Source: Modestobacter versicolor | Lineage (GTDB): Bacteria > Actinomycetota > Actinomycetes > Mycobacteriales > Geodermatophilaceae | Length of the DNA: 64,000 bases | Assembly: GCF_014195485.1 (NCBI RefSeq) | Contig: NZ_JACIBU010000001.1 | Location: forward strand, 2,232,001-2,296,000 | Reading direction: 5' to 3' | Shown: positions 51,178-63,647 of the stretch, piece after piece | Layout: each line of letters begins with the position of its first letter | Numbering within the stretch: position 1 is the first letter of the stretch | Program-made: the position numbers and the translations under genes | Notes under the pieces: generated by a model | The model's input: the letters and a program-made list of their open reading frames with translations, nothing else | Databases searched by the model: none | What the model was told of the DNA's origin: nothing

Positions 51178-52317
51178 CTAGCCGGCGAGCTCGGCGAGCC
51201 GCTCCTTGAGGGCCTTCTCGGCGCGGTCGGCGTGCACGTTCATGTTGCGCACCGAGGTGCCCAGGTCGGCCGACAGCTGGGTCTTGGTCTGCCCGCCCCA
51301 GGTGGTGAGGTACCAGGTGGCCCAGCCCAGCACGTTCGGCTGGGCGGCCCGCTGGTCGCGGCGGGCGGTGGGGTCGGGGGCGCAGGCGGCGGTCAGTGCG
51401 TGGGAGAGCAGGGTCTGCTCCGCCTCGCCCATGATCTCGTCGGGCACCTCGGAGCTGTCCGGGAGCACGAACTCGACCGCGTCGGCCCCGCCGTCCAGCG
51501 ACTGCAGGTTCCGCAGCCCGTTGAGCGTCGCGACGGTCTGGGAGTTGCGGCGCAGCGTGGCGACGCTCTGCCCCATGTAGGCGGCGAGCTCCTTCTCGCT
51601 GGGCCGGCGCTGGTGCTCGGCGGTGAAGGCGGCGATGGCCTTCTGCTGCTTGTTCTCCGTGTCCGCGGCGGTGCGCCCGTAGGCGTTGCGGCCCAGGTCG
51701 TGCACCCACTTGGACAGCTGGGTGGCGAGGAAGGCGCCGAACGGGACGCCCTTGGACTCGTCGTAGTGCGAGACGGCCTTGAGCACCCACTCGGCGACCT
51801 GCTGGTCGATGTCGTCGTTGTCGGGCAGGTGCAGCCGGATCGTCGACATGTTGCGCTGCAGCCGCTTGAGGCTGACCCGGCAGTAGTGCCGGCACAGGTC
51901 GGCGAGGAACGCCGGCGGCAGGTCGCGCGGGGCGCGGCGGCGGACGCCGGCCTCCGGGCGCAGCCCGACGGTGGTGTAGCCCTCGGCGGCGCACCAGCCG
52001 CGGACGAGCGCGGCGAGCGTCTCGCCCGAGCCCGGCGCGCCGTCGACGCGGTACAGGCCGTCGCCCTCGTCGTAGGTGACCGTGACGCCGGCCGGCAGGG
52101 CGCGCCGGAAGGCGTCCAGCGGCAGCTCGCGGTCGGTGCGGAAGTGCACCCGGTCCAGCGGGGCGATGGGCGCGAGCGTCCAGCCCTCGGCCTCGGGGAT
52201 GCCCCCGAACACGAGCGGCTCGCGGAGGCGGCGCTCCTCGGCGGCGGCCTGGGCGGCAGCGCGCGGGGTCTGGTCGGCGGGGGCGATGGGCTGGGCGGCG
52301 AGGATGTTCTCGGACAC
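51178..52317 (-). CDS. Divergent sigma-70-like protein with long N-terminal extension
   Basis: A 379-aa protein. Residues ~165-215 (DDIDQQVAEWVLKAVSHYDE, then SKGVPFGAFLATQLSKWVHD, then LGRNAYGR) align by eye with sigma-70 region 2, where a typical factor reads AVDKFDPEKGFRFSTYA. Residues ~233-262 (RRPSEKELAAYMGQSVATLR) resemble region 3. The C-terminal LSADLGTSVRNMNVHADRAE plus KALKERL resembles the region 4.2 helix-turn-helix. The first ~160 residues are unlike known sigma domains. GTG 52317 has AGGAGG 5 nt upstream. It could be an alternative sigma factor or an RNA-polymerase-binding relative. Adjacent to the flagellar locus. Confidence 0.7.
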   Translation of the reverse strand: MSENILAAQPIAPADQTPRAAAQAAAEERRLREPLVFGGIPEAEGWTLAPIAPLDRVHFRTDRELPLDAFRRALPAGVTVTYDEGDGLYRVDGAPGSGETLAALVRGWCAAEGYTTVGLRPEAGVRRRAPRDLPPAFLADLCRHYCRVSLKRLQRNMSTIRLHLPDNDDIDQQVAEWVLKAVSHYDESKGVPFGAFLATQLSKWVHDLGRNAYGRTAADTENKQQKAIAAFTAEHQRRPSEKELAAYMGQSVATLRRNSQTVATLNGLRNLQSLDGGADAVEFVLPDSSEVPDEIMGEAEQTLLSHALTAACAPDPTARRDQRAAQPNVLGWATWYLTTWGGQTKTQLSADLGTSVRNMNVHADRAEKALKERLAELAG

Positions 52318-52416: not shown

Positions 52417-52986
52417 TCAGACGAGGGCGGCGACGGGGGTCTCGCGGACGACGCCGGAGGGCGTGCGCGGCGAGGGGATGCGCGGGGCCGGGACGCGCGG
52501 CGCGGGGGTGCGCGGGCGGGGCGTCTCGGCGGCCTCGAGGACACCGGCGGCAGCGGCGCGCTCGGCCTCGCTGGGCTCGCCGACGTAGACCGGCATGTAG
52601 TCGTACAGGTCGGTGAACAGACCGTCGACGAAGGCGTAGGCGGCCTGGGCCTGGTCGGAGAACTTGGCGATCAGCTCGCGGGGGCCCAGCTCGACGCCGA
52701 CCGTCACGCGGACCACCCGGTCGTCACCGCTCAGCCCGGTGAGGGCGAAGGGGACGGTGTCGTGCCGGGTGGCCAGCGCGGCGAGCGCGGCGAGGCAGCG
52801 GCGGGTCGAGGACCGGCGCGGCCGGAGCTGCACGTGGACGACGACGGTCTCGGGGTACACCGACGCGGGGCACACCGGCTCGAGGGCGTCGACGGCCGCG
52901 AGGTGCTGCAGCTCGTCGTTGCCGGACGTGTCGACGCGGAGGTTCACACCGGTGGCCGACTCGAGTGCGCGTGCGCTGAGTTCCAT
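52417..52986 (-). CDS. Protein of unknown function with basic Pro-rich tail, 189 aa
   Basis: Starts MELSARALESATGVNLRVDT at ATG 52986 with AGGGGGAG about 8 nt upstream. A mixed alpha/beta domain of ~140 residues (ETVVVHVQLRPRRSSTRRCL, DDRVVRVTVGVELGPRELIA, SDQAQAAYAFVDGLFTDLYD) is followed by a tail with PRTPAPRVPAPRIPSPRTP repeats, likely disordered. No family recognised. It precedes the sigma-like gene by 99 bp on the same strand, so the two may share a transcript and this protein may be its partner or antagonist. Confidence 0.75.
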   Translation of the reverse strand: MELSARALESATGVNLRVDTSGNDELQHLAAVDALEPVCPASVYPETVVVHVQLRPRRSSTRRCLAALAALATRHDTVPFALTGLSGDDRVVRVTVGVELGPRELIAKFSDQAQAAYAFVDGLFTDLYDYMPVYVGEPSEAERAAAAGVLEAAETPRPRTPAPRVPAPRIPSPRTPSGVVRETPVAALV

Positions 52987-53114: not shown

Positions 53115-53378
53115 TCACGGTGTTGTCACATCTTGCTGAGGAGCGGGGTCGGACGCTGGTGCGAATGCTGCCAAGGCGCCCAGCGCGTCGGCAGCCACCT
53201 CGGCAGCGAGGCTGTTGGCCTCGGCGATCTGCCGGTAGACCTCCTCGCGGTGGATGGTCACCTCGCGGGGGGCCTTGAAGCCCAGCCGCACGGTGCCACC
53301 GCGGACCTCGACGACGTAGACCTCGATGTCCTCGCCGATCCGGATGCTCTCGCCGACGCTGCGGGTGAGTGTGAGCAC
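53115..53378 (-). CDS. csrA: Carbon storage regulator CsrA
   Basis: An 87-aa RNA-binding protein. Residues 1-~55 are the CsrA fold: VLTLTRSVGESIRIGEDIEV, VRLGFKAPREVTIHREEVYR, with the RNA-contacting Leu4-Arg6 and RxxVxxHREE parts intact. An Ala-rich tail of ~30 residues is longer than in the 61-aa E. coli protein. GTG at 53378 has GGAGGGG 6 nt upstream. CsrA dimers bind GGA in hairpin loops and block ribosome access; in Bacillus the target is the flagellin mRNA. Suitable hairpins occur before all three flagellin genes here. fliW, its usual antagonist gene, is not adjacent. Confidence 0.93.
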   Translation of the reverse strand: MLTLTRSVGESIRIGEDIEVYVVEVRGGTVRLGFKAPREVTIHREEVYRQIAEANSLAAEVAADALGALAAFAPASDPAPQQDVTTP

Positions 53379-53484
53379 TGGTACCCCTCCATGGGTTCGT
53401 GTGAGCCGTCCGTGGCATCGCCCCGCCCGGTGGCGGGGCCGGTGCGGGTCCACCCGGGTGGACCCGCCCCTGCTCTTCCTTCTC

Positions 53485-53522: not shown

Positions 53523-54455
53523 TCAGCGCAGGAAGTCCAGCAGCGTCGGCTGGATCGCCTTCGCGGTGGCCCCCAGGGCCGCCTCGTAGCCGGTCTGCTG
53601 CATCTGCAGGTTCATGATCGTCTTGGCCAGGTCGACGTTCTCGATGTCGGCTGACCTGCTGGTGAGCGTCAGCTGGAGGTCGGCGTTGACCTGCTTGGCC
53701 GTCTCCATCCGGTTGGTCCGGGTGCCGATGTCGGTGGCCGCCTTCAGCATGCCGCCGAGCGCGGCGTCCAGCGCGGTCATGTCCGCGGCCAGCTTGGCCG
53801 GGTCGTTGACCACGTGGTCGGCGATGTCCCCGACGATCTGGAACAGGTCCCGGGTGACCGGGGTGACGCCCGCCGCGCTGGTGACCCCGAACGCCTCCAG
53901 CCCGGTGATGTCCACCCGGATGGTGTCGCCCTCGGCGACCTGCCGGTTGACCATGACCGTCGTGTCCAGCGGTCCGGCGGGCGCCCGGAACCCGACGTAC
54001 GCGCCGGTGGCCGGGTCGTAGGCCGTGGTGCCGCTGGTGACGCCGCCGAAGACCGGGTGCCCCTGCACCTGGGTGTTCGCCAGGCCGAGGAGGCTCTCGC
54101 GGATGCCGCGGACCTCGGTCGCGATGGCCGAGCGCGCGGCCTCAGACAGCGCACCGTCGTTGGACCCGGTCAGCGCCCGGTCCTTGACCGTGTGGACCTG
54201 GGCGATCATGTTCTGCAGCGTCGAGTCGGTGATGTTCAGGACGCCGAGCCCGTCGGAGATGTTGCGCGCGTGCTGCGTCGCGCCGGCGATCTCCTGCCGG
54301 GTCTGCATCGCCGCGTTCGTCCCCGTCGGGTCGTCCGAGGGCTTGTTGATCGTCCGGCCCGAGGTCAGCTGCTGCTGCAGTTTGCTGATCGCGGCGAGGT
54401 TCTGGTTCAGCCCCTGCAGGCTGGTGGTGGCGACCGAGCGCTGGGTGATCCGCAT
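53523..54455 (-). CDS. flgL: Flagellar hook-associated protein 3 (hook-filament junction)
   Basis: A 310-aa junction protein between hook and filament. The N-terminal helix resembles flagellin (MRITQRSVATTSLQGLNQNL, then LQQQLTSGRTINKPSDDP) and the C-terminal helix ends SADIENVDLAKTIMNLQMQQ, then TGYEAALGATAKAIQPTLLD, the canonical FlgL pattern. It lies 4 bp after flgK. It is exported by the flagellar type III system and polymerises at the distal hook before the filament. Confidence 0.95.
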   Translation of the reverse strand: MRITQRSVATTSLQGLNQNLAAISKLQQQLTSGRTINKPSDDPTGTNAAMQTRQEIAGATQHARNISDGLGVLNITDSTLQNMIAQVHTVKDRALTGSNDGALSEAARSAIATEVRGIRESLLGLANTQVQGHPVFGGVTSGTTAYDPATGAYVGFRAPAGPLDTTVMVNRQVAEGDTIRVDITGLEAFGVTSAAGVTPVTRDLFQIVGDIADHVVNDPAKLAADMTALDAALGGMLKAATDIGTRTNRMETAKQVNADLQLTLTSRSADIENVDLAKTIMNLQMQQTGYEAALGATAKAIQPTLLDFLR

Positions 54456-55890: not shown

Positions 55891-56375
55891 AGGGCACCGT
55901 CCAGGGTGACGGAGCGGTAGGCGTTGCCCGAGGCCCGGCCGCTCTGGGTGTAGGTGCCGGCCGTGGCGGCCGGCTGCGAGGAGGTCAGGGCGTCGTTGAT
56001 GACGGCCAGGCCGCTCTCGATGAGCTCCTTGTTGGCGTCGGAGAGGCCGCGCAGCTCGGTGACGAGCACGAGCAGCGCCTCGTGGTGCTTGGCGTAGAGG
56101 TCGTTCCACGGCGCCGGCGCGGAGTCCGCGAGCTGGCGGAGGGAGGGGTTGGCGTCGAGCCCGAGGCGACCGGCGATCTGCTCGGTGGCCGCAGCGCGCT
56201 CGACCTCGAGGGTGCGCAGCTGCTCCAGGACCACCTCGATCTCGTGCGCGATCCGAGCCAGCCACCGGCTCTTGCCGGTGAGGATCAGGTACTGCTTCTC
56301 CTCGGCCTTGAACAGCAGGAGGTCGAGCAGTTCCTGCTCCCGCCAGAGCAACGTCGACAGGTGCTGGTGGTCCAT
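55887..56375 (-). CDS. flgN: FlgN-like flagellar export chaperone
   Basis: A ~162-aa, mostly helical protein: MDHQHLSTLLWREQELLDLL, YLILTGKSRWLARIAHEIEV, and a central coiled coil ending IESGLAVINDALTSS. Helical character, size and position immediately before flgK fit FlgN, the chaperone that escorts FlgK and FlgL to the export gate. Sequence identity in this family is always low, so position carries much of the call. First gene of the flgN-flgK-flgL run; divergent from fliA with 189 bp between. Confidence 0.85.
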   Translation of the reverse strand: MDHQHLSTLLWREQELLDLLLFKAEEKQYLILTGKSRWLARIAHEIEVVLEQLRTLEVERAAATEQIAGRLGLDANPSLRQLADSAPAPWNDLYAKHHEALLVLVTELRGLSDANKELIESGLAVINDALTSSQPAATAGTYTQSGRASGNAYRSVTLDGAL

Positions 56376-56412
56376 GCCGGCCGCCTTTCCGTCGTCGTGT
56401 GCAGCCCGTCGT

Positions 56413-56428
56413 GCGGGCCTCGGCCCGC
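56413..56428. promoter_or_regulatory. Inverted repeat between flgN and fliA
   Basis: GCGGGCC-TC-GGCCCGC, perfect 7-bp arms, about 38 bp upstream of flgN and 136 bp upstream of fliA in the divergent promoter region. Could be an operator for early flagellar control; no regulator can be named. Confidence 0.35.
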
Positions 56429-56564
56429 CGGGGTCCGGCGAGCGCTGTCGATCTCCCATCGGCACGGCGCGGCGCCCGATCAAGCCGAGAGGCCCAGGGG
56501 GCTCGCCGAAGATTCTCCGGCGCCGACGGTCCGGTGCGGGCCGGAACCCGCCGAGACAGGGGGT

Positions 56565-57497
56565 GTGACCCCAGCGAGCCCCGCCGTGAGTGAGCGCCGA
56601 CAGCCCGACGTCGACGCGCTGGTGACCACCCATCTCCCGCTGGCCCAGTTCGCGGTGAACGCGGTGGCATCCCGCATCTCCCTGCCCAGCCACGTGAGCC
56701 GCGACGACCTGCTGTCCTGCGCGAGCGTCGCGCTGGTCGAGGTCGCCCGCCGGTTCGACCCGACCGCCGGCGCCAGCTTCGCCACCTACGCACTCCCGCG
56801 CCTGCAGGGGGCCGTGCTGGACGAGCTGCGCTCCGGTGACTGGGCCAGCCGCTCGGTCCGCGCCGCCGCCCGGCGGACCGACGCCGCCACCGACGCGCTC
56901 ACCATCACGCTGGGGCGCCCGCCGACGAAGGAGGAGCTGGCGGCCAGCCTCGGCGTCGCGCGCTCGGAGCTCGACTCGCTCCAGATCGACGTCCACCGGG
57001 CCGTGATGGTGAGCATCGACGCCGAGACGGGTGCCGACGGCGGGTCGCTCGACCTGCCCGACGCCGGCGACTCCCCGGAGCGGGCGCTGCTGCGCAGCGA
57101 GCGGGTCCGGCACCTGCACGAGGCGATCCGGGCCCTGCCCGACCGGCTCGACGAGGTCGTGGAGCGCAACTTCTTCGGCGACGAGTCGCTGACCGACATC
57201 GCCGACTCCCTCGGCGTCACGCTCTCCCGGGTCTCCCAGATGCGCGCCCGCGCGCTGACCCTGCTGCACGCGGCGATGAGCGAGGTGTGGGACGGCACCG
57301 CGGTGCCGGCCGACGGTGGGGTGCGCGCCCGCAACCAGCAGCGCGCCTACATCGACCGGGTCGCCGCCCGCCAGCTCGCCGGCCGCAGCCCCGTGCCCGC
57401 CGCCGTCCCCCCGCCGTTCCCGGTGCCGCAGCCCCGACCGCGCCCGCGGCACGGCTGGCAGCTCCCGGAGCGGAAGGCCGCCGCGCAGACCGCCTGA
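56565..57497 (+). CDS. fliA: RNA polymerase sigma factor, FliA/WhiG (sigma-28) family
   Basis: A ~310-aa group 3 sigma factor. Region 2 is DDLLSCASVALVEVARRFDP, then TAGASFATYALPRLQGAVLD, ELRSGDWASRSVR. Region 3 is LGRPPTKEELAASLGVARSE. Region 4 is ALPDRLDEVVERNFFGDESL, then TDIADSLGVTLSRVSQMRAR. A ~70-residue Pro/Arg-rich tail after region 4 is unusual. GTG 56565 lies next to an AGGGGG stretch. Family and location (between flgN and the flagellins) mark it as the flagellar sigma factor; matching promoters precede all three flagellins. Confidence 0.92.
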   Translation: MTPASPAVSERRQPDVDALVTTHLPLAQFAVNAVASRISLPSHVSRDDLLSCASVALVEVARRFDPTAGASFATYALPRLQGAVLDELRSGDWASRSVRAAARRTDAATDALTITLGRPPTKEELAASLGVARSELDSLQIDVHRAVMVSIDAETGADGGSLDLPDAGDSPERALLRSERVRHLHEAIRALPDRLDEVVERNFFGDESLTDIADSLGVTLSRVSQMRARALTLLHAAMSEVWDGTAVPADGGVRARNQQRAYIDRVAARQLAGRSPVPAAVPPPFPVPQPRPRPRHGWQLPERKAAAQTA

Positions 57498-57516: not shown

Positions 57517-57545
57517 GTTGACACCGGGCCTCTTGGAGCCGTTGG
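57517..57545 (+). promoter_or_regulatory. Sigma-28-type promoter of flagellin gene 1
   Basis: GTTGAC (57517-57522), 15 nt, GCCGTTGG (57538-57545). The -10 element and spacing match the other two flagellin promoters; the -35 element differs more (TTGAC versus TCAAG), so strength or specificity may differ. Confidence 0.65.
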
Positions 57546-57555
57546 AGAGACCGGT

Positions 57556-57577
57556 CCCACCGCACGGACGCGGTGGG
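57556..57577 (+). promoter_or_regulatory. CsrA-type leader hairpin, flagellin gene 1
   Basis: Stem CCCACCGC/GCGGTGGG (8 bp, perfect) with the hexaloop ACGGAC. ACGGA in a loop is the classic CsrA-binding feature. A second ACGGAGG overlaps the ribosome site at 57599-57605, giving the two-site arrangement used for translational repression. Confidence 0.72.
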
Positions 57578-57611
57578 CGAAGTCCCCGCCAACGGTCCAC
57601 GGAGGGCCCGT

Positions 57612-58865
57612 ATGAGCCTGGTCGTCACGACCAACGTCGCCGGGATGAACTCCCAGCGCGCCCTGTCGATCGCCGATCGGCAGCTCACCACCTCACTGGA
57701 ACGACTGTCCTCGGGCAGCCGGATCAACCGCGCCGCCGACGACGCCTCCAACCTGGCGATCTCGGAGGGGCTGCGGGCTCAGATCGGCGGGTTCCGGGTC
57801 GCGCTGCGCAACACCCAGGACGGCATCTCGGTCCTGCAGACCGCCGAGGGGGCGCTCACCGAGACGCAGGGCATCCTGCACCGGATGCGCGATCTGTCGG
57901 TGCAGGCGGCCAACGCCGGCAGCCTGGACGACGACGCCCGGGGCAACCTGCAGTCGGAGATCGGGCAGCTGCGCAACGAGCTGGACCGGATCGCCGGCAC
58001 CACGTCGTTCAACGGGCGGAAGCTGCTCGACGGCGGGTACCGGACCGTCTTCCACGTGGGCGCCGACGCCGGCCACACGATCGCCGTCGACCTCGGTCGC
58101 GGCACGAGCGCAGCGGCGCTGGGCGTGGACGGCATCGACGTCACCGGGCCCGGCCGCTACGGCCCCGGCGCGGTGACGCTGTCCACCGCAGCCGCACCCG
58201 GCACGGCCGCCGTGCTCACGATCGCCGCGGCCGGCGGGTCGGCGGGCTTCAGCGGGGGCACCGGCGGCGTCTCGGCGTACACCGACCTGGACGGCACGAT
58301 CAGCGTCGGCGGCAGGTCCTTCGACCTGGCCTCGGTGCGCTACGACACCGCCGCGGACACCGACGGCAACGGGACCCGGGACGCCGCGGACCTGCTCGCC
58401 CAGCTCAACCGGGCCGCCATCGTCGCGCTCGGGCTCACCTCCCCTCCGTTCAGCAGCCCGACCCCCGGCACCCTGGCCTTCGCCGTGGCCGAGCCGCTGC
58501 CCGGGCACACCGGCACCGCCGGGGCCCCGCTGAGCGCTTCGGCCGCCGACCTGGCCCGGTCGACACCGACGTTCACCGCGGCCGGCGGTGCCTCCCGGGC
58601 GCTCACCGCGATCGACGCCGCGATCGAGCGGATCTCGACGGTGCGGGGCGACCTGGGCGCGGTGCAGAACCGGCTGGAGCACAACATCGCCAAGCTCGGG
58701 GTGGCGCTGGACAACACCGCGGCCTCGGACAGCCGGATCCGGGACACCGACATGGCCACCGAGATGACCGCCTTCACCCGTACCCAGATCCTTAGCCAGG
58801 CCGGCACCGCGATGCTCGCCCAGGCGCACGCCGCTCCTCAGGGGGTGCTGAAACTGCTGGTCTGA
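57612..58865 (+). CDS. fliC: Flagellin 1 (divergent)
   Basis: A 417-aa flagellin. Conserved D0/D1 helices are present at both ends: VTTNVAGMNSQRALSIADRQ, LTTSLERLSSGSRINRAADD, and at the C-terminus SRIRDTDMATEMTAFTRTQI, LSQAGTAMLAQAHAAPQGVL. The middle (about 175-325) is variable and surface-exposed, rich in Gly, Ala and Thr. It is clearly more divergent than the other two flagellins and may be a minor or specialised filament protein. ATG 57612 follows the GGAGGG ribosome site. sigma-28-type promoter and CsrA-type hairpin upstream. Confidence 0.95.
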   Translation: MSLVVTTNVAGMNSQRALSIADRQLTTSLERLSSGSRINRAADDASNLAISEGLRAQIGGFRVALRNTQDGISVLQTAEGALTETQGILHRMRDLSVQAANAGSLDDDARGNLQSEIGQLRNELDRIAGTTSFNGRKLLDGGYRTVFHVGADAGHTIAVDLGRGTSAAALGVDGIDVTGPGRYGPGAVTLSTAAAPGTAAVLTIAAAGGSAGFSGGTGGVSAYTDLDGTISVGGRSFDLASVRYDTAADTDGNGTRDAADLLAQLNRAAIVALGLTSPPFSSPTPGTLAFAVAEPLPGHTGTAGAPLSASAADLARSTPTFTAAGGASRALTAIDAAIERISTVRGDLGAVQNRLEHNIAKLGVALDNTAASDSRIRDTDMATEMTAFTRTQILSQAGTAMLAQAHAAPQGVLKLLV

Positions 58866-58901
58866 CCGGGCTCCCCCCAACGAGGGACTCTCCGGAAAGT
58901 G

Positions 58902-58930
58902 CTCAAGGAACTCTGGGACGGCGCCGTTGA
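58902..58930 (+). promoter_or_regulatory. Sigma-28-type promoter of flagellin gene 2
   Basis: CTCAAG (58902-58907), 15 nt, GCCGTTGA (58923-58930). Close to the enterobacterial TAAAG-N15-GCCGATAA consensus, with C for the second base of the -35 and T for A in the -10. Confidence 0.75.
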
Positions 58931-58941
58931 GAGGGCCAGAG

Positions 58942-58963
58942 CCCACCGCACGGATGCGGTGGG
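58942..58963 (+). promoter_or_regulatory. CsrA-type leader hairpin, flagellin gene 2
   Basis: Stem CCCACCGC/GCGGTGGG, perfect over 8 bp, with hexaloop ACGGAT. The ribosome site GGAGGA is 12 nt further on (58975-58980), so a CsrA dimer could bridge both GGA sites. Confidence 0.75.
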
Positions 58964-58984
58964 ACCCCGTCCTTGGAGGAACAC

Positions 58985-60256
58985 ATGGGTCTGTCCGTGA
59001 ACAACAACATCGCGGCGATGAACTCGTACCGCAACCTGTCGGCGACCGACAGCCAGATGAGCAAGTCGCTGGAGAAGCTCTCCTCCGGCTTCCGCATCAA
59101 CCGCGCCGCCGACGACGCGGCGGGCCTGGCCATCTCCGAGGGCCTGCGCTCGCAGATCGGTGGCTTCAAGGTCGCCGTCCGCAACACCCAGGACGGCGTC
59201 TCGGTCGTGCAGACCGCTGAAGGTGCGCTCACCGAGACGCACAAGATCCTGCAGCGCATGCGCGACCTGTCGGTGCAGGCCTCCAACGAGGGCTCGCTGA
59301 ACGCCGACGCCAAGAAGAACATCCAGTCCGAGATCGGCCAGCTCAAGTCCGAGCTGAACCGCATCGCCGACACCACGACGTTCAACGGCAAGAAGCTGCT
59401 CGACGGCAACTACGCCACCACCTTCCAGGTGGGTGCCAACTCCGGTGAGACCATCGCGGTCAACATCGGCACGGCCATGGGCGCTGCCGGCCTCGGCGTC
59501 AACGGCGTCGACGTCACCGGGACCGGTGCCTACGCCACCGGTGCCAGCGGCACCTCGGCGGCCGGCACCGCGGTGCTGACCACCGCCGCCAGCGACACCG
59601 CCAACGCCGCGATCACCTTCTACCAGGCCGACGCCACCCGGGACTTCGCCGCAGCCAGCGGCGGCAGCACCTACTCCGTGGAGGCCTTCCGCGGGCTGGA
59701 CGGCACGCTGAGCTTCGGTGGCAAGACCTTCGACCTCGGCTCGGTGCAGTACGCCGACGCCGACACCGCCACCGAGGCGCTGGGCAAGCTGAACAAGGCC
59801 GCCGCCGACGCCTTCGGCCTGGCCGACACCGCCACGCCGTTCGCCGTCAGCGCCGACGACACCGACCTGGTCTTCACCACCCCGATCAACGTCACCGGCT
59901 ACACCGATGGTGGCGGCGCGATCGACGCCACCGCGGCCAGCCTGGCCAAGGCGACGCCGACGTTCACCTCGGGCACCGGTGCCTCCGCGGCGATCGACGA
60001 CATCGACAAGGCGATCAAGCAGGTCTCCACCACTCGCGCCGACCTGGGTGCCATCCAGAACCGGTTCGAGCACACCATCAGCAACCTCAACGTCGCCGTC
60101 GAGAACCTGACCGCCTCGGAGAGCCGGATCCGCGACACCGACATGGCCCAGGAGATGACGAACTTCACCCGTTCGCAGATCCTGACCCAGGCCGGCACCG
60201 CGATGCTGGCCCAGGCCAACCAGGCTCCGCAGGGCATCCTCCGCCTGCTGGGCTGA
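58985..60256 (+). CDS. fliC: Flagellin 2
   Basis: A 423-aa major-type flagellin: MGLSVNNNIAAMNSYRNLSA, MSKSLEKLSSGFRINRAADD, NTQDGVSVVQTAEGALTETH, and the C-terminal SRIRDTDMAQEMTNFTRSQI, LTQAGTAMLAQANQAPQGIL. The variable centre is ~190 residues. It differs from flagellin 3 at only seven positions by eye, and 770 bp in the middle are identical. ATG 58985 follows GGAGGA. Own sigma-28-type promoter, CsrA-type hairpin and terminator, so it is a separate transcription unit. Confidence 0.96.
   Translation: MGLSVNNNIAAMNSYRNLSATDSQMSKSLEKLSSGFRINRAADDAAGLAISEGLRSQIGGFKVAVRNTQDGVSVVQTAEGALTETHKILQRMRDLSVQASNEGSLNADAKKNIQSEIGQLKSELNRIADTTTFNGKKLLDGNYATTFQVGANSGETIAVNIGTAMGAAGLGVNGVDVTGTGAYATGASGTSAAGTAVLTTAASDTANAAITFYQADATRDFAAASGGSTYSVEAFRGLDGTLSFGGKTFDLGSVQYADADTATEALGKLNKAAADAFGLADTATPFAVSADDTDLVFTTPINVTGYTDGGGAIDATAASLAKATPTFTSGTGASAAIDDIDKAIKQVSTTRADLGAIQNRFEHTISNLNVAVENLTASESRIRDTDMAQEMTNFTRSQILTQAGTAMLAQANQAPQGILRLLG
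59264..60033 (+). repeat. 770-bp block identical between flagellin genes 2 and 3 (copy in gene 2)
   Basis: Aligned at a fixed offset of 1484 bp, no difference is seen between 59264-60033 and 60748-61517, although substitutions occur on both sides (for example 59263 C versus 60747 T, and 60034 T versus 61518 C). This indicates recent duplication or gene conversion. Confidence 0.85.
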
Positions 60257-60277
60257 CCCGCCTGAGCACCTGAACAC

Positions 60278-60317
60278 CCGGTGAGGGGGACGGCCCCCGG
60301 GGCCTCCCCCTCACCGG
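60278..60317 (+). terminator. Terminator downstream of flagellin gene 2
   Basis: A 13-bp perfect stem (CCGGTGAGGGGGA with complement TCCCCCTCACCGG) and a GC-rich loop, 22 bp past the stop. Confidence 0.75.
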
Positions 60318-60370
60318 CGTGCCCGTGGTCCTCCGGTCGACCGGGCGCCGAAAAACAGTCGCCCGTTCGG

Positions 60371-60399
60371 GTCAAGACCGGCCTCGTCCCAGCCGTAAC
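60371..60399 (+). promoter_or_regulatory. Sigma-28-type promoter of flagellin gene 3
   Basis: GTCAAG (60371-60376), 15 nt, GCCGTAAC (60392-60399). Best -10 match of the set to the classical GCCGATAA. Confidence 0.75.
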
Positions 60400-60414
60400 A
60401 GGGAGAGCAACACC

Positions 60415-60434
60415 CCGCAGCACGGATGCAGCGG
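60415..60434 (+). promoter_or_regulatory. CsrA-type leader hairpin, flagellin gene 3
   Basis: Stem CCGCAGC/GCAGCGG (six pairs and one A-A mismatch) with the same hexaloop ACGGAT. Stem sequence differs from the other two leaders while loop and shape are kept. AAGGAGGA at 60456 supplies the second GGA site at the ribosome-binding region. Confidence 0.72.
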
Positions 60435-60468
60435 ATGTCCCTGTAGGCCCCGTCCAAGGAGGATCACC

Positions 60469-61740
60469 ATGGGTCTGAGCGTCAACAACAACATCGCGGC
60501 GATGAACTCGTACCGCAACCTGTCGGTCACCGACAGCCAGATGAGCAAGTCGCTGGAGAAGCTCTCCTCCGGCTTCCGCATCAACCGCGCCGCCGACGAC
60601 GCGGCGGGCCTGGCCATCTCCGAGGGCCTGCGCTCGCAGATCGGTGGCCTGAAGGTCGCCGTCCGCAACACCCAGGACGGCATCTCGGTCGTGCAGACCG
60701 CTGAAGGTGCGCTCACCGAGACGCACAAGATCCTGCAGCGCATGCGTGACCTGTCGGTGCAGGCCTCCAACGAGGGCTCGCTGAACGCCGACGCCAAGAA
60801 GAACATCCAGTCCGAGATCGGCCAGCTCAAGTCCGAGCTGAACCGCATCGCCGACACCACGACGTTCAACGGCAAGAAGCTGCTCGACGGCAACTACGCC
60901 ACCACCTTCCAGGTGGGTGCCAACTCCGGTGAGACCATCGCGGTCAACATCGGCACGGCCATGGGCGCTGCCGGCCTCGGCGTCAACGGCGTCGACGTCA
61001 CCGGGACCGGTGCCTACGCCACCGGTGCCAGCGGCACCTCGGCGGCCGGCACCGCGGTGCTGACCACCGCCGCCAGCGACACCGCCAACGCCGCGATCAC
61101 CTTCTACCAGGCCGACGCCACCCGGGACTTCGCCGCAGCCAGCGGCGGCAGCACCTACTCCGTGGAGGCCTTCCGCGGGCTGGACGGCACGCTGAGCTTC
61201 GGTGGCAAGACCTTCGACCTCGGCTCGGTGCAGTACGCCGACGCCGACACCGCCACCGAGGCGCTGGGCAAGCTGAACAAGGCCGCCGCCGACGCCTTCG
61301 GCCTGGCCGACACCGCCACGCCGTTCGCCGTCAGCGCCGACGACACCGACCTGGTCTTCACCACCCCGATCAACGTCACCGGCTACACCGATGGTGGCGG
61401 CGCGATCGACGCCACCGCGGCCAGCCTGGCCAAGGCGACGCCGACGTTCACCTCGGGCACCGGTGCCTCCGCGGCGATCGACGACATCGACAAGGCGATC
61501 AAGCAGGTCTCCACCACCCGCGCCGACCTGGGTGCCATCCAGAACCGGTTCGAGCACACCATCAACAACCTCAACGTCGCCGTCGAGAACCTGTCGGCGT
61601 CCGAGAGCCGGATCCGCGACACCGACATGGCCCAGGAGATGACGAACTTCACCCGTACGCAGATCCTGACCCAGGCCGGCACCGCGATGCTGGCCCAGGC
61701 CAACCAGGCTCCGCAGGGCATCCTGAAGCTGCTGGGCTGA
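60469..61740 (+). CDS. fliC: Flagellin 3
   Basis: A 423-aa flagellin nearly identical to flagellin 2. The seven differences seen are SVTDS, GGLKVAV, DGISVV, HTINNLN, NLSASES, TRTQIL and GILKLLG in this copy. ATG 60469 with an excellent ribosome site AAGGAGGATCACC. A longer upstream start is rejected because it would run through the promoter and leader hairpin. Own sigma-28-type promoter and terminator. Confidence 0.96.
   Translation: MGLSVNNNIAAMNSYRNLSVTDSQMSKSLEKLSSGFRINRAADDAAGLAISEGLRSQIGGLKVAVRNTQDGISVVQTAEGALTETHKILQRMRDLSVQASNEGSLNADAKKNIQSEIGQLKSELNRIADTTTFNGKKLLDGNYATTFQVGANSGETIAVNIGTAMGAAGLGVNGVDVTGTGAYATGASGTSAAGTAVLTTAASDTANAAITFYQADATRDFAAASGGSTYSVEAFRGLDGTLSFGGKTFDLGSVQYADADTATEALGKLNKAAADAFGLADTATPFAVSADDTDLVFTTPINVTGYTDGGGAIDATAASLAKATPTFTSGTGASAAIDDIDKAIKQVSTTRADLGAIQNRFEHTINNLNVAVENLSASESRIRDTDMAQEMTNFTRTQILTQAGTAMLAQANQAPQGILKLLG
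60748..61517 (+). repeat. 770-bp block identical between flagellin genes 2 and 3 (copy in gene 3)
   Basis: Counterpart of 59264-60033. The flanking promoters, leaders and 3' ends of the two genes differ far more than this central segment. Confidence 0.85.
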
Positions 61741-61832: not shown

Positions 61833-63218
61833 ATGGCAGGCATGAGCGTGAGCACCGGCCTGATCTCGGGCATCGACTACAGCACGATGATCACCCAGCT
61901 GATGCAGGTCGAGGCGAACCCGCAGAGCCTGCTCAAGAACCAGCTGACCGCCACCAAGTCCGACGCCACCGCCTACCGCGCGGTGAACACCCGGTTCGAG
62001 ACGCTGCGCTCCGCCGCGGCCGCGCTCACCGCGGACACCGCCTGGACGGCGGTCAAGGCCAGCAGCAGCAACGCCAGCGTCGCCGCCAGCGCCGGCGCCA
62101 CCGCCGTCGGCGGGTCGGTGACCTTCACGGTCAAGCAGCTGGCCACGGCGCACTCTGAGATCAGCGACCAGGCCTGGACCGGCACCGACCAGGCGTTCGG
62201 TGCCGGCACGTTCACGTTCACGCCCAAGGGCGGCACGGCCACCGCCATCGCGATCCCCACGACGAACGCCGGCGGCGCCACCCTCGCCGACGCCGTGGCC
62301 GCGATCAACGCCAGCGACAAGGGCCTCACCGCCGCCGCCGTCCGGGTCAAGGACGGCGAGTACCGCCTCCAGGTGACGGCCAAGGCCACCGGCGAGAAGG
62401 CCTCCTTCGTCGTCGGCGACGACACCGCCTGGAAGACCGCGGTGACCGGCCAGGACGCCAAGCTCACCCTCGGCGAGCTCGCGCTGGAGGTCTCCAGCGA
62501 CACCAACACCTTCACCGGTCTGATGGCCGACACCAGCATCACCGTCAGCAAGACCGGCGAGACGGCCACGGTCGGCGTGACCAAGGACCCCAGCAGCGTC
62601 ACCACCAAGGTCAAGGCCCTGGTCGACGCGGCCAACAACATGCTGCAGGCGGTCACCGACTACACCGACCCGGAGAACGACGCCGCCCTGCTGAAGGGCG
62701 ACAGCACGCTGCGCAGCCTGGCGAACAAGGTGCTCGACGTCTTCTCCGGCGGCGTGGGCGGCGTCTCGGCGTCCAGCCTCGGCGTGAAGCTCACCAGGGA
62801 CGGGAAGCTCGAGTTCGACTCGGCGGCCTTCACCGCCAAGATGGCCAGCGACCCCGCCGCGGTCAAGGACCTGCTCACCCGGAAGACGATCGTCTCGCCG
62901 GGCGCGGACCTGATCAGCGGCAACGCCGACGACGTCACGTCCCCCCTCGGCTTCGCGGCGAAGCTGGAGGCGCTGGCCAAGGGCGCCTCGGACACCACCA
63001 CCGGTTCCCTGGTGCTGCTGGCCAAGAGCCAGGACGCCCTCGCCACCGACCTGCAGACCCGGATCGACAACTGGGACACCCGGCTGGCGCTCCGCAAGTC
63101 CTCGCTGACCGCCCAGTTCACCGCCATGGAGAAGGCGCTCGGCACGATGCAGAACCAGGCCTCGTGGCTGAGCTCGCAGATCGCCGGGCTGCCCTCCTGG
63201 TCCAAGTCCTCCAAGTAG
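61833..63218 (+). CDS. fliD: Flagellar filament cap protein (hook-associated protein 2)
   Basis: A 461-aa filament cap, which promotes flagellin folding and assembly at the filament tip. The N-terminal FliD_N signature is VSTGLISGIDYSTMITQLMQ, then VEANPQSLLKNQLTATKSDA. The C-terminal domain ends TRIDNWDTRLALRKSSLTAQ, then FTAMEKALGTMQNQASWLSS, typical of FliD. GGAGGAACCCC precedes the ATG. Lies between the flagellins and fliS, the usual order. Confidence 0.95.
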   Translation: MAGMSVSTGLISGIDYSTMITQLMQVEANPQSLLKNQLTATKSDATAYRAVNTRFETLRSAAAALTADTAWTAVKASSSNASVAASAGATAVGGSVTFTVKQLATAHSEISDQAWTGTDQAFGAGTFTFTPKGGTATAIAIPTTNAGGATLADAVAAINASDKGLTAAAVRVKDGEYRLQVTAKATGEKASFVVGDDTAWKTAVTGQDAKLTLGELALEVSSDTNTFTGLMADTSITVSKTGETATVGVTKDPSSVTTKVKALVDAANNMLQAVTDYTDPENDAALLKGDSTLRSLANKVLDVFSGGVGGVSASSLGVKLTRDGKLEFDSAAFTAKMASDPAAVKDLLTRKTIVSPGADLISGNADDVTSPLGFAAKLEALAKGASDTTTGSLVLLAKSQDALATDLQTRIDNWDTRLALRKSSLTAQFTAMEKALGTMQNQASWLSSQIAGLPSWSKSSK

Positions 63219-63260: not shown

Positions 63261-63647
63261 ATGAGCACCGCTTCCCTCCGCGCCCGCTACCTGGGCGACA
63301 CGGTCACCACCGCCTCCCCGCAGCGGCTGCTGGTCATGCTGTACGACCGGCTGGCCCTCGACCTCGAGCGGGCACAGATGGCGCTGACCGAGGGCGACCG
63401 CGAGACCGGCACCGCCCAGCTCACCCACGCCCAGGACGTCGTCTTCGGCCTGCTGGAGAGCCTGCAGGTCGACGCCTGGGACGGCGCTCCCCGGCTGGCC
63501 GCGCTCTACAACTGGCTGATCTCCGAGCTCGGGCACGCCATCACCAAGGGCGACCTCCGCCGGGTGGCCGACTGCCGCAAGATCGTCGAGCCGCTGCGTG
63601 ACGCCTGGCGGGAGGCTGCTGCCTCCCTCGCCTCGAGCCCGGCATGA
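63261..63647 (+). CDS. fliS: Flagellin export chaperone FliS
   Basis: A 128-aa four-helix-bundle chaperone that binds the C-terminal helix of flagellin and prevents early polymerisation. Family features are ARYLGDTVTTASPQRLLVML, YDRLALDLERAQMAL, and LYNWLISELGHAITKGDLRR. Length is normal. The stop overlaps the next gene by 4 bp. Confidence 0.95.
   Translation: MSTASLRARYLGDTVTTASPQRLLVMLYDRLALDLERAQMALTEGDRETGTAQLTHAQDVVFGLLESLQVDAWDGAPRLAALYNWLISELGHAITKGDLRRVADCRKIVEPLRDAWREAAASLASSPA

Follow-up and report, generated by a model that had tools for sequence, protein, structure and literature searches.

In the leader of the Bacillus flagellin gene hag, the upstream binding site of the protein CsrA presents a GGA in the loop of a hairpin, and the flaA mRNA of Campylobacter jejuni reportedly titrates CsrA. 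The accessible passages of PMC7652899 describe repression of hag by CsrA at two leader sites, one of them over the ribosome site, and its relief by free FliW; they also give the consensus from systematic evolution of ligands by exponential enrichment (SELEX), RUACARGGAUGU, with the GGA mostly in a hairpin loop, and report autoregulation of Escherichia coli csrA through a site over its ribosome site. In the excerpt of PMC4894983, C. jejuni flaA mRNA is named as a CsrA target and called dual-function. CsrA control at the ribosome site of the Kineococcus radiotolerans flagellin Krad1626 was proposed in 2008, with a 9 of 12 match to BS2 (PMC2587704, in excerpt). Here we analyze 64,000 nucleotides of the soil actinobacterium Modestobacter versicolor (NZ_JACIBU010000001.1, positions 2,232,001 to 2,296,000; this whole stretch is the window), in which the flagellin genes fla1, fla2 and fla3 each carry a leader hairpin with ACGGA in its loop. 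From sequence comparison we consider it highly probable that these hairpins are CsrA sites repressing flagellin translation, as in Bacillus hag.

The three leaders contain the following elements:

57556-57577, plus strand: fla1 leader hairpin, CCCACCGC-ACGGAC-GCGGTGGG, 8 pairs, loop at 57564-57569
57592-57611, plus strand: second fla1 site, ACGGAG at the ribosome site, loop at 57599-57604, 6 pairs and one mismatch
58942-58963, plus strand: fla2 leader hairpin, same stem as fla1, loop ACGGAT at 58950-58955, 8 pairs
58973-58979, plus strand: fla2 ribosome site TTGGAGG, containing GGA, from the sequence
60415-60434, plus strand: fla3 leader hairpin, CCGCAGC-ACGGAT-GCAGCGG, loop at 60422-60427, 6 pairs and an internal A.A mismatch
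60456-60462, plus strand: fla3 ribosome site AAGGAGG, containing GGA, from the sequence

A first-pass annotation of the window had placed a hairpin with the loop ACGGA[C/T] at these positions in all three flagellin leaders, and had compared their layout to that of hag, with csrA in the same locus. The hairpins and their loops are confirmed, the second GGA at the ribosome site can be read directly in all three leaders, and csrA lies at 53115-53378 on the minus strand. While "all three" holds for the locus, there is a fourth flagellin elsewhere in the genome; its leader also carries a hairpin (GCTGC-ACGGAT-GCGGC), and a second ACGGAT lies shortly before the ribosome site. The annotated distance of 20-45 nucleotides from hairpin to ribosome site has to be corrected, the gaps to GGAGG being 23, 11 and 23 nucleotides in fla1, fla2 and fla3, respectively; the loop ends 42, 29 and 41 nucleotides before the start codon. 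The third stem does differ while the loop is kept, as annotated, although its internal A.A mismatch had gone unmentioned. The predicted folds of fla2 and fla3 reduce the hexaloop to CGGA by pairing its A and U as well. The leader form CA-C-GGA-Y-G is close to the SELEX consensus and differs from it in the C before GGA, where the consensus has R.

As in Bacillus subtilis hag, a flagellin gene thus combines GGA in a leader hairpin loop with GGA at the ribosome site, in a genome that contains csrA. Unlike B. subtilis, Modestobacter belongs to the Actinomycetota, has no FliW match, carries the site in four flagellin leaders and has two further sites in the csrA leader. Across both strands of the window, hexaloops of the form A.GGA. 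on at least five pairs occur at nine places; the three flagellin leader hairpins and the ribosome sites of fla1 and csrA account for five of them. Without regard to structure, ACGGAY is less frequent in the window than expected (23 found, 81 expected); the leader sites stand out by placement and stem. An Rfam search of the window gave no match above the gathering score.

The hairpin is widely conserved. The order sample comprised 150 genomes, 46 of them with a flagellin-domain match; from 67 flagellin-domain rows we took 62 leaders of 41 genomes, after dropping five rows that were FlgL-like, truncated or had a poor start (two from G053 and one each from G117, G009 and G068). FlgL-type rows were kept out, and G111, G129 and G147 lie outside this leader set, G147 being part of the phylum set. 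A hairpin with an A.GGA. hexaloop on at least five pairs, 16-90 nucleotides before the start codon, is present in 47 of the 62 leaders, compared to 0.69% of 6,200 dinucleotide shuffles. By genome the figure is 36 of 41, and none of the nine families is without an example. Of the five genomes without it, four have [AC]CCC-ACGGAT-GGG stems, which count as three pairs by our simple rule, while the fifth, G023, has GCC-AGGAA-GGC, a five-base loop that still presents GGA. By eye, a five-base loop AGGAA or AUGAA replaces the hexaloop in this G023 leader (L066) and in leaders L133, L135, L136, L138 and L140-L143 of family f36. The core GCAGC-ACGGAT-GCAGC, with the A.A mismatch seen in fla3, is identical in 16 of the 62 leaders, from 16 genomes. 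Among 23 named Geodermatophilaceae loci, five of which seem to repeat genomes already counted, our flagellin pattern picked out 19 leaders, every one of them with the hairpin.

When 150 nucleotides including the ribosome site were scanned in a related count, the hairpin was present in 50 of 62 leaders, compared to none of the 62 on the antisense strand and 1 of 124 further upstream. This bears on the idea that the palindrome is a DNA operator for a transcription regulator near the transcription start, which would agree with an inverted repeat just downstream of a predicted promoter. We regard an operator as extremely improbable, because it would conserve the arms, whereas here the arms vary between families and the spacer keeps its motif in 51 of 62 leaders; moreover, the spacer is in sense orientation, no antisense leader having the hairpin with at least five pairs, and the A.A mismatch breaks the palindrome in 16 leaders.

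The motif A[CT]GGA occurs at 18-70 nucleotides in 51 of the 62 order leaders. These 51 gave 46 distinct rows for the covariation analysis, the other 11 being excluded and the upstream motif being taken in the seven leaders with two. In the 46 pieces 87.2% of the stem cells are paired, against 63.8% in shuffled and 28.3-50.0% in slid versions, and 73 cells are changed on both sides, against 27.8 in shuffles. Since kinship inflates the pair counts, the slid control matters most. The closing C-G is found in 46 of 46 pieces, although it was not a picking criterion. With the own family left out, 22 pieces give the same picture (85.8% paired): the stems differ between families yet stay paired. A motif that is kept while its stems change in a compensatory way supports a protein site at the RNA level, and the annotated view of a conserved RNA site is borne out in this respect.

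Related elements are found in the leader of csrA itself, in addition to those of the first-pass annotation:

53115-53378, minus strand: csrA, 87 amino acids, GTG start, PF02599 at 85.3 bits; also found by a whole-genome search
53405-53416, minus strand: csrA leader site 1, GCC-ACGGAC-GGC, loop at 53408-53413
53383-53396, minus strand: csrA leader site 2, ACCC-AUGGAG-GGGU over the ribosome site, from sequence and fold

Both sites are returned by the predicted fold, which overall is no better than that of shuffles (64 of 200 fold as well). In the csrA leaders of Geodermatophilaceae the ribosome-site hairpin is widely kept; the upstream hairpin is missing in Klenkia and varies in others. The two hairpins suggest that csrA limits its own expression. 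A CsrA-type site over the ribosome site is shared with E. coli csrA, as far as the latter is described in PMC7652899; here, however, there are two sites, and antagonists of the CsrB/CsrC type were not found by the one pattern used.

Predicted sigma-28-like promoters precede all three window hairpins, with the transcript starts predicted as well:

57518-57542, plus strand: fla1 promoter TTGAC-N15-GCCGT, by regular expression, boundaries counted on the sequence
58903-58927, plus strand: fla2 promoter TCAAG-N15-GCCGT, by eye, as the script missed it
60372-60396, plus strand: fla3 promoter TCAAG-N15-GCCGT, by regular expression, boundaries counted on the sequence

The pattern was TCAAG or TTGAC, 15 nucleotides, and GCCGT or GCCGA, based on what we take to be the sigma-28 consensus. 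With this loose expression, a sigma-28-like element lies upstream of the hairpin in 36 of 56 leaders, some of the matches being doubtful. The gap from promoter to motif is 4-17 nucleotides in 33 of the 36, a rough distance, since the scan takes the first A[CT]GG[AC] as its end point, and some leaders have such a motif already upstream of the real loop. If the predicted promoters are right, the hairpin would be close to the very start of the mRNA. The long folds had shown an outer helix around each hairpin, differing in sequence, which we dropped because its 5' arm in fla1 and fla3 overlaps or abuts the predicted -10 element; the promoter position argues against these helices, the arm probably not being transcribed in full in fla1 and fla3, and the folds change once the outer helix is left out.

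A position near the predicted 5' end would also suit a hairpin that stabilizes the 5' terminus of the mRNA or binds a protein other than CsrA, and three fla1-like leaders in fact keep the stem without GGA in the loop, so that the stem may have a use of its own. This seems quite improbable to us, however, as a plain stabilizer gives no reason for A[CT]GGA to persist in 51 of 62 leaders while the stem changes, and the same motif recurs in the leader of csrA. Alternatively, the hairpins could be CsrA sites at which CsrA stabilizes or activates the flagellin mRNA, as for E. coli flhDC, where activation by CsrA is cited in the excerpt of PMC2587704; a protein bound near the (roughly predicted) 5' end could protect the mRNA from decay. 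We consider activation unlikely, though somewhat less so than a stabilizer: GGA is also present at each ribosome site, that of fla1 within a hairpin with ACGGAG, which fits blocking, and the Bacillus flagellin precedent is repression (PMC7652899, same passages).

Repression by CsrA would then proceed as follows. CsrA would dock on the hairpins near the 5' end of the flagellin mRNAs. Held there and at the ribosome-site GGA, it would keep ribosomes off the mRNA and so limit how much flagellin is made. One CsrA dimer may bridge hairpin and ribosome site. Through the two similar hairpins in its own leader, csrA would restrain itself.

The CsrA protein has a full-length domain (PF02599 positions 1-53 of 53, 85.3 bits) and keeps L4, R6, H43 and R44 in alignment with solved CsrA/RsmE proteins. 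These, together with R/K7, we take to be RNA-contact residues of CsrA. Of 105 genomes with a flagellin-domain match, csrA was found in 101, compared to none of 20 that lack such a match (44 of 46 and 0 of 14 in the order, 57 of 59 and 0 of 6 in the phylum set), where the 105 include G111 with a weak match and some genomes with FlgL-type matches only, and the csrA match of G274 is partial. Taken as isolated pieces, the window hairpins fold better than shuffles (z of -4.0, -4.6 and -2.3 for fla1, fla2 and fla3).

Several observations weigh against CsrA repression at these hairpins. Because csrA tracks flagella almost everywhere in our sample, their co-occurrence is not enough to identify the binding protein. 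Position 7 of CsrA is Ser in M. versicolor and Ser, Thr or Asn in 18 of 18 genomes of the family, compared to Arg in 24 of 24 others of the order. The constancy of the loop inside our alignments is due to selection, the pieces having been picked by A[CT]GGA, so that the loop argument rests on the 51 of 62 leaders that hold the motif at 18-70 nucleotides. Long leaders do not fold better than shuffles (z of -1.4, -0.2 and -0.2), the predicted fla1 transcript alone prefers a competing fold without the ACGGAC hairpin, and among the short leaders folded (fla1, fla2, fla3, the fourth flagellin and csrA) only fla2 clearly beats its shuffles. Genome-wide, a model trained with the own family left out fails to separate sites from chance, non-flagellated genomes reaching 26.8 bits. 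Within the family, the hairpin is missing in 9 of 34 leaders; three of these are fla1-like leaders of Modestobacter congeners with the loop ACGGCT, so that a loss of ACGGA from orthologous leaders, which the first-pass annotation had named as counter-evidence, is seen in part. In the phylum, families f30, f36, f42, f52, f53, f56 and f73 are without an upstream hexaloop site and score at most two pairs.

The six other family leaders without the hairpin lie away from the main locus. The three fla1-like leaders (L033, L035 and L036, from G039, G048 and G092) keep the GC-rich stem and represent a natural loss of GGA in one paralogue. Position 3 of CsrA is Thr in 18 of 18 family genomes and Val or Ile in the 24 others of the order. 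Beyond the order, 68 leaders (67 phylum rows and one from the order, excluding partial and FlgL-type rows) show the hairpin with at least four pairs in 35 cases (2.3% of shuffles) and at least five pairs in 23 (1.2% of shuffles). The hexaloop site is therefore common, but not universal, in the phylum.

How would CsrA be released from these leaders? FliW is found in 33 of 46 order genomes and 56 of 59 phylum-set genomes with a flagellin-domain match. The whole M. versicolor genome gave no match with either the Pfam FliW model or a family-specific FliW alignment. Eleven of the 13 FliW-less order genomes belong to Modestobacter (five), genus g5 (probably Klenkia; five) and G029 (one), all at least 99% complete. 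The family-specific alignment, which recovered 3 of 3 positive controls at E about 1e-60, was without a match in nine of these 11; in the other two it picked up weak stretches containing an internal stop (E of 0.08 and 0.5). The gap between flgL and csrA is 132-151 nucleotides without FliW, compared to 470-622 nucleotides in those relatives within the family that have it. The hairpin site persists in all 11 genomes, in one or more flagellin leaders each.

In 31 of 31 FliW-bearing genomes CsrA has Asn at residue 55; among the 11 FliW-less genomes five have Gln there, five Arg and one, M. versicolor, Asn. Four further named Modestobacter loci, checked as loci only and without FliW in the stretch, also have Asn55, which is thus kept in 5 of 15 FliW-less cases. 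According to the excerpt of PMC7829508, changes at N55 prevent FliW binding in Campylobacter and Bacillus. The drift at this residue fits loss of the FliW partner, incomplete in part of Modestobacter. With respect to the Hag-FliW-CsrA partner switch, M. versicolor retains Asn55 while FliW is not found in its genome. In C. jejuni CsrA likewise acts on a flagellin mRNA, as proposed here, but FliW is present there and the phylum is a different one. A single loss of FliW was considered and dropped: the FlgL tree puts FliW-less rows in several branches with Geodermatophilus and Blastococcus nested, some forks being weak, and is compatible with several losses, or with one loss and a regain.

As FliW was not found in the genus, CsrA must be relieved another way, and the feedback by which unexported flagellin acts on CsrA must either be absent or have been rebuilt. 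Relief would come from autoregulation combined with titration on the four flagellin leaders, or from some other antagonist; candidates may be csrA self-repression plus titration on several leaders, another protein, or a small RNA of a kind not covered by the single pattern used. We tentatively propose, at somewhat less than even chances, that Modestobacter, Klenkia and a third genus run a FliW-less CsrA-flagellin circuit with relief by a route not described for the phylum. In the available part of PMC4682653, FliW is put forward as a possible regulator of CsrA in Actinobacteria as well as in other groups, BarA-UvrY is reported as characteristic of gamma-proteobacteria, and 340 of 346 CsrA genomes have FliW or BarA-UvrY, while the other six might have both. 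The phylogeny of that survey was drawn from genomes with at least one of the two, and CsrA-only genomes therefore do not appear in it. If BarA-UvrY is also absent, CsrA in the FliW-less genera has neither known control module.

The first-pass annotation had predicted CsrA control of flagellin translation in an actinobacterium, a group in which it regarded CsrA as little studied. Motif and layout support such control; its novelty is limited by the Kineococcus proposal (PMC2587704), which likewise concerns an actinobacterial ribosome site, the excerpted passages giving no upstream hairpin, conservation or FliW status. Little literature on CsrA in actinobacteria turned up, and the partial listings, in which subscription journals are thinly covered, held no title on CsrA binding to actinobacterial flagellin leaders. 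In the portions available, a study of actinobacterial flagella has CsrA and FliW among its search proteins (PMC10746217), and csrA is named among stress genes in a paper on Modestobacter deserti (PMC8602919). As far as that literature goes, the novelty lies in the conserved hairpin, in the sites of the csrA leader and in the variant without FliW. The leaders represent a defined set of predicted CsrA targets conserved over an order. They come with natural controls, namely paralogues with a GGA-less loop and sister genera with and without FliW, and the fate of the CsrA-flagellin circuit after loss of its antagonist thereby becomes testable.

In a search for further targets, the leave-family-out model ranks the three window leaders 1-3 within the window, followed in fourth place by the second fla1 site (57592-57611). 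Genome-wide it is not diagnostic, with only 150 of the 3,747 own-genome candidates scored. A model trained with the own leaders ranks the four flagellin leaders first (29.1-35.4 bits, next 19.6), which is circular. We claim no further CsrA targets in the genome. The pattern for CsrB-like arrays (three CAYGGA sites in a row, a single pattern that covers dense arrays only) gave no match in the own genome, compared to two in the reversed control, and mostly simple repeats in other genomes. A cluster at G071:C13:167199-167283 has three to four CACGGA/CATGGA sites within 85 nucleotides and repeated ATCGA-containing arms; it could be a small RNA or chance.

The remaining genes of the flagellar locus are:

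53523-54455, minus strand: flgL-type gene with two flagellin domains; csrA directly next after a 144-nucleotide gap, where relatives have fliW
56566-57497 (start approximate), plus strand: sigma-70 family gene with regions 2, 3 and 4, Pfam on frame 56082-57494
57612-58865, plus strand: fla1, flagellin of 417 amino acids, Pfam PF00669 and PF00700
58985-60256, plus strand: fla2, flagellin of 423 amino acids, Pfam
60469-61740, plus strand: fla3, flagellin of 423 amino acids, Pfam
61833-63218, plus strand: fliD, Pfam
63261-63647, plus strand: fliS, Pfam

The plus-strand order is thus sigma-70 family gene, fla1, fla2, fla3, fliD and fliS, with the flgL-type gene and csrA on the minus strand. The best named match to this CsrA is from Modestobacter, as is the nearest FlgL. 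The name flgL is inferred from position and size, and from its position the sigma-70 family gene is likely the flagellar sigma factor FliA. Besides the flgL-type gene the genome has four flagellins, three of them in this locus and the fourth far away at G000:C1:1557908. By eye, the fla2 and fla3 proteins are nearly identical despite their different leaders, a pattern suggestive of a recent duplication or of gene conversion. Just downstream of csrA and on the same minus strand lies an open frame of 189 amino acids (52417-52986) with no function assigned, and another minus-strand frame (51178-52317) resembles, by eye only, a relative of sigma factors.

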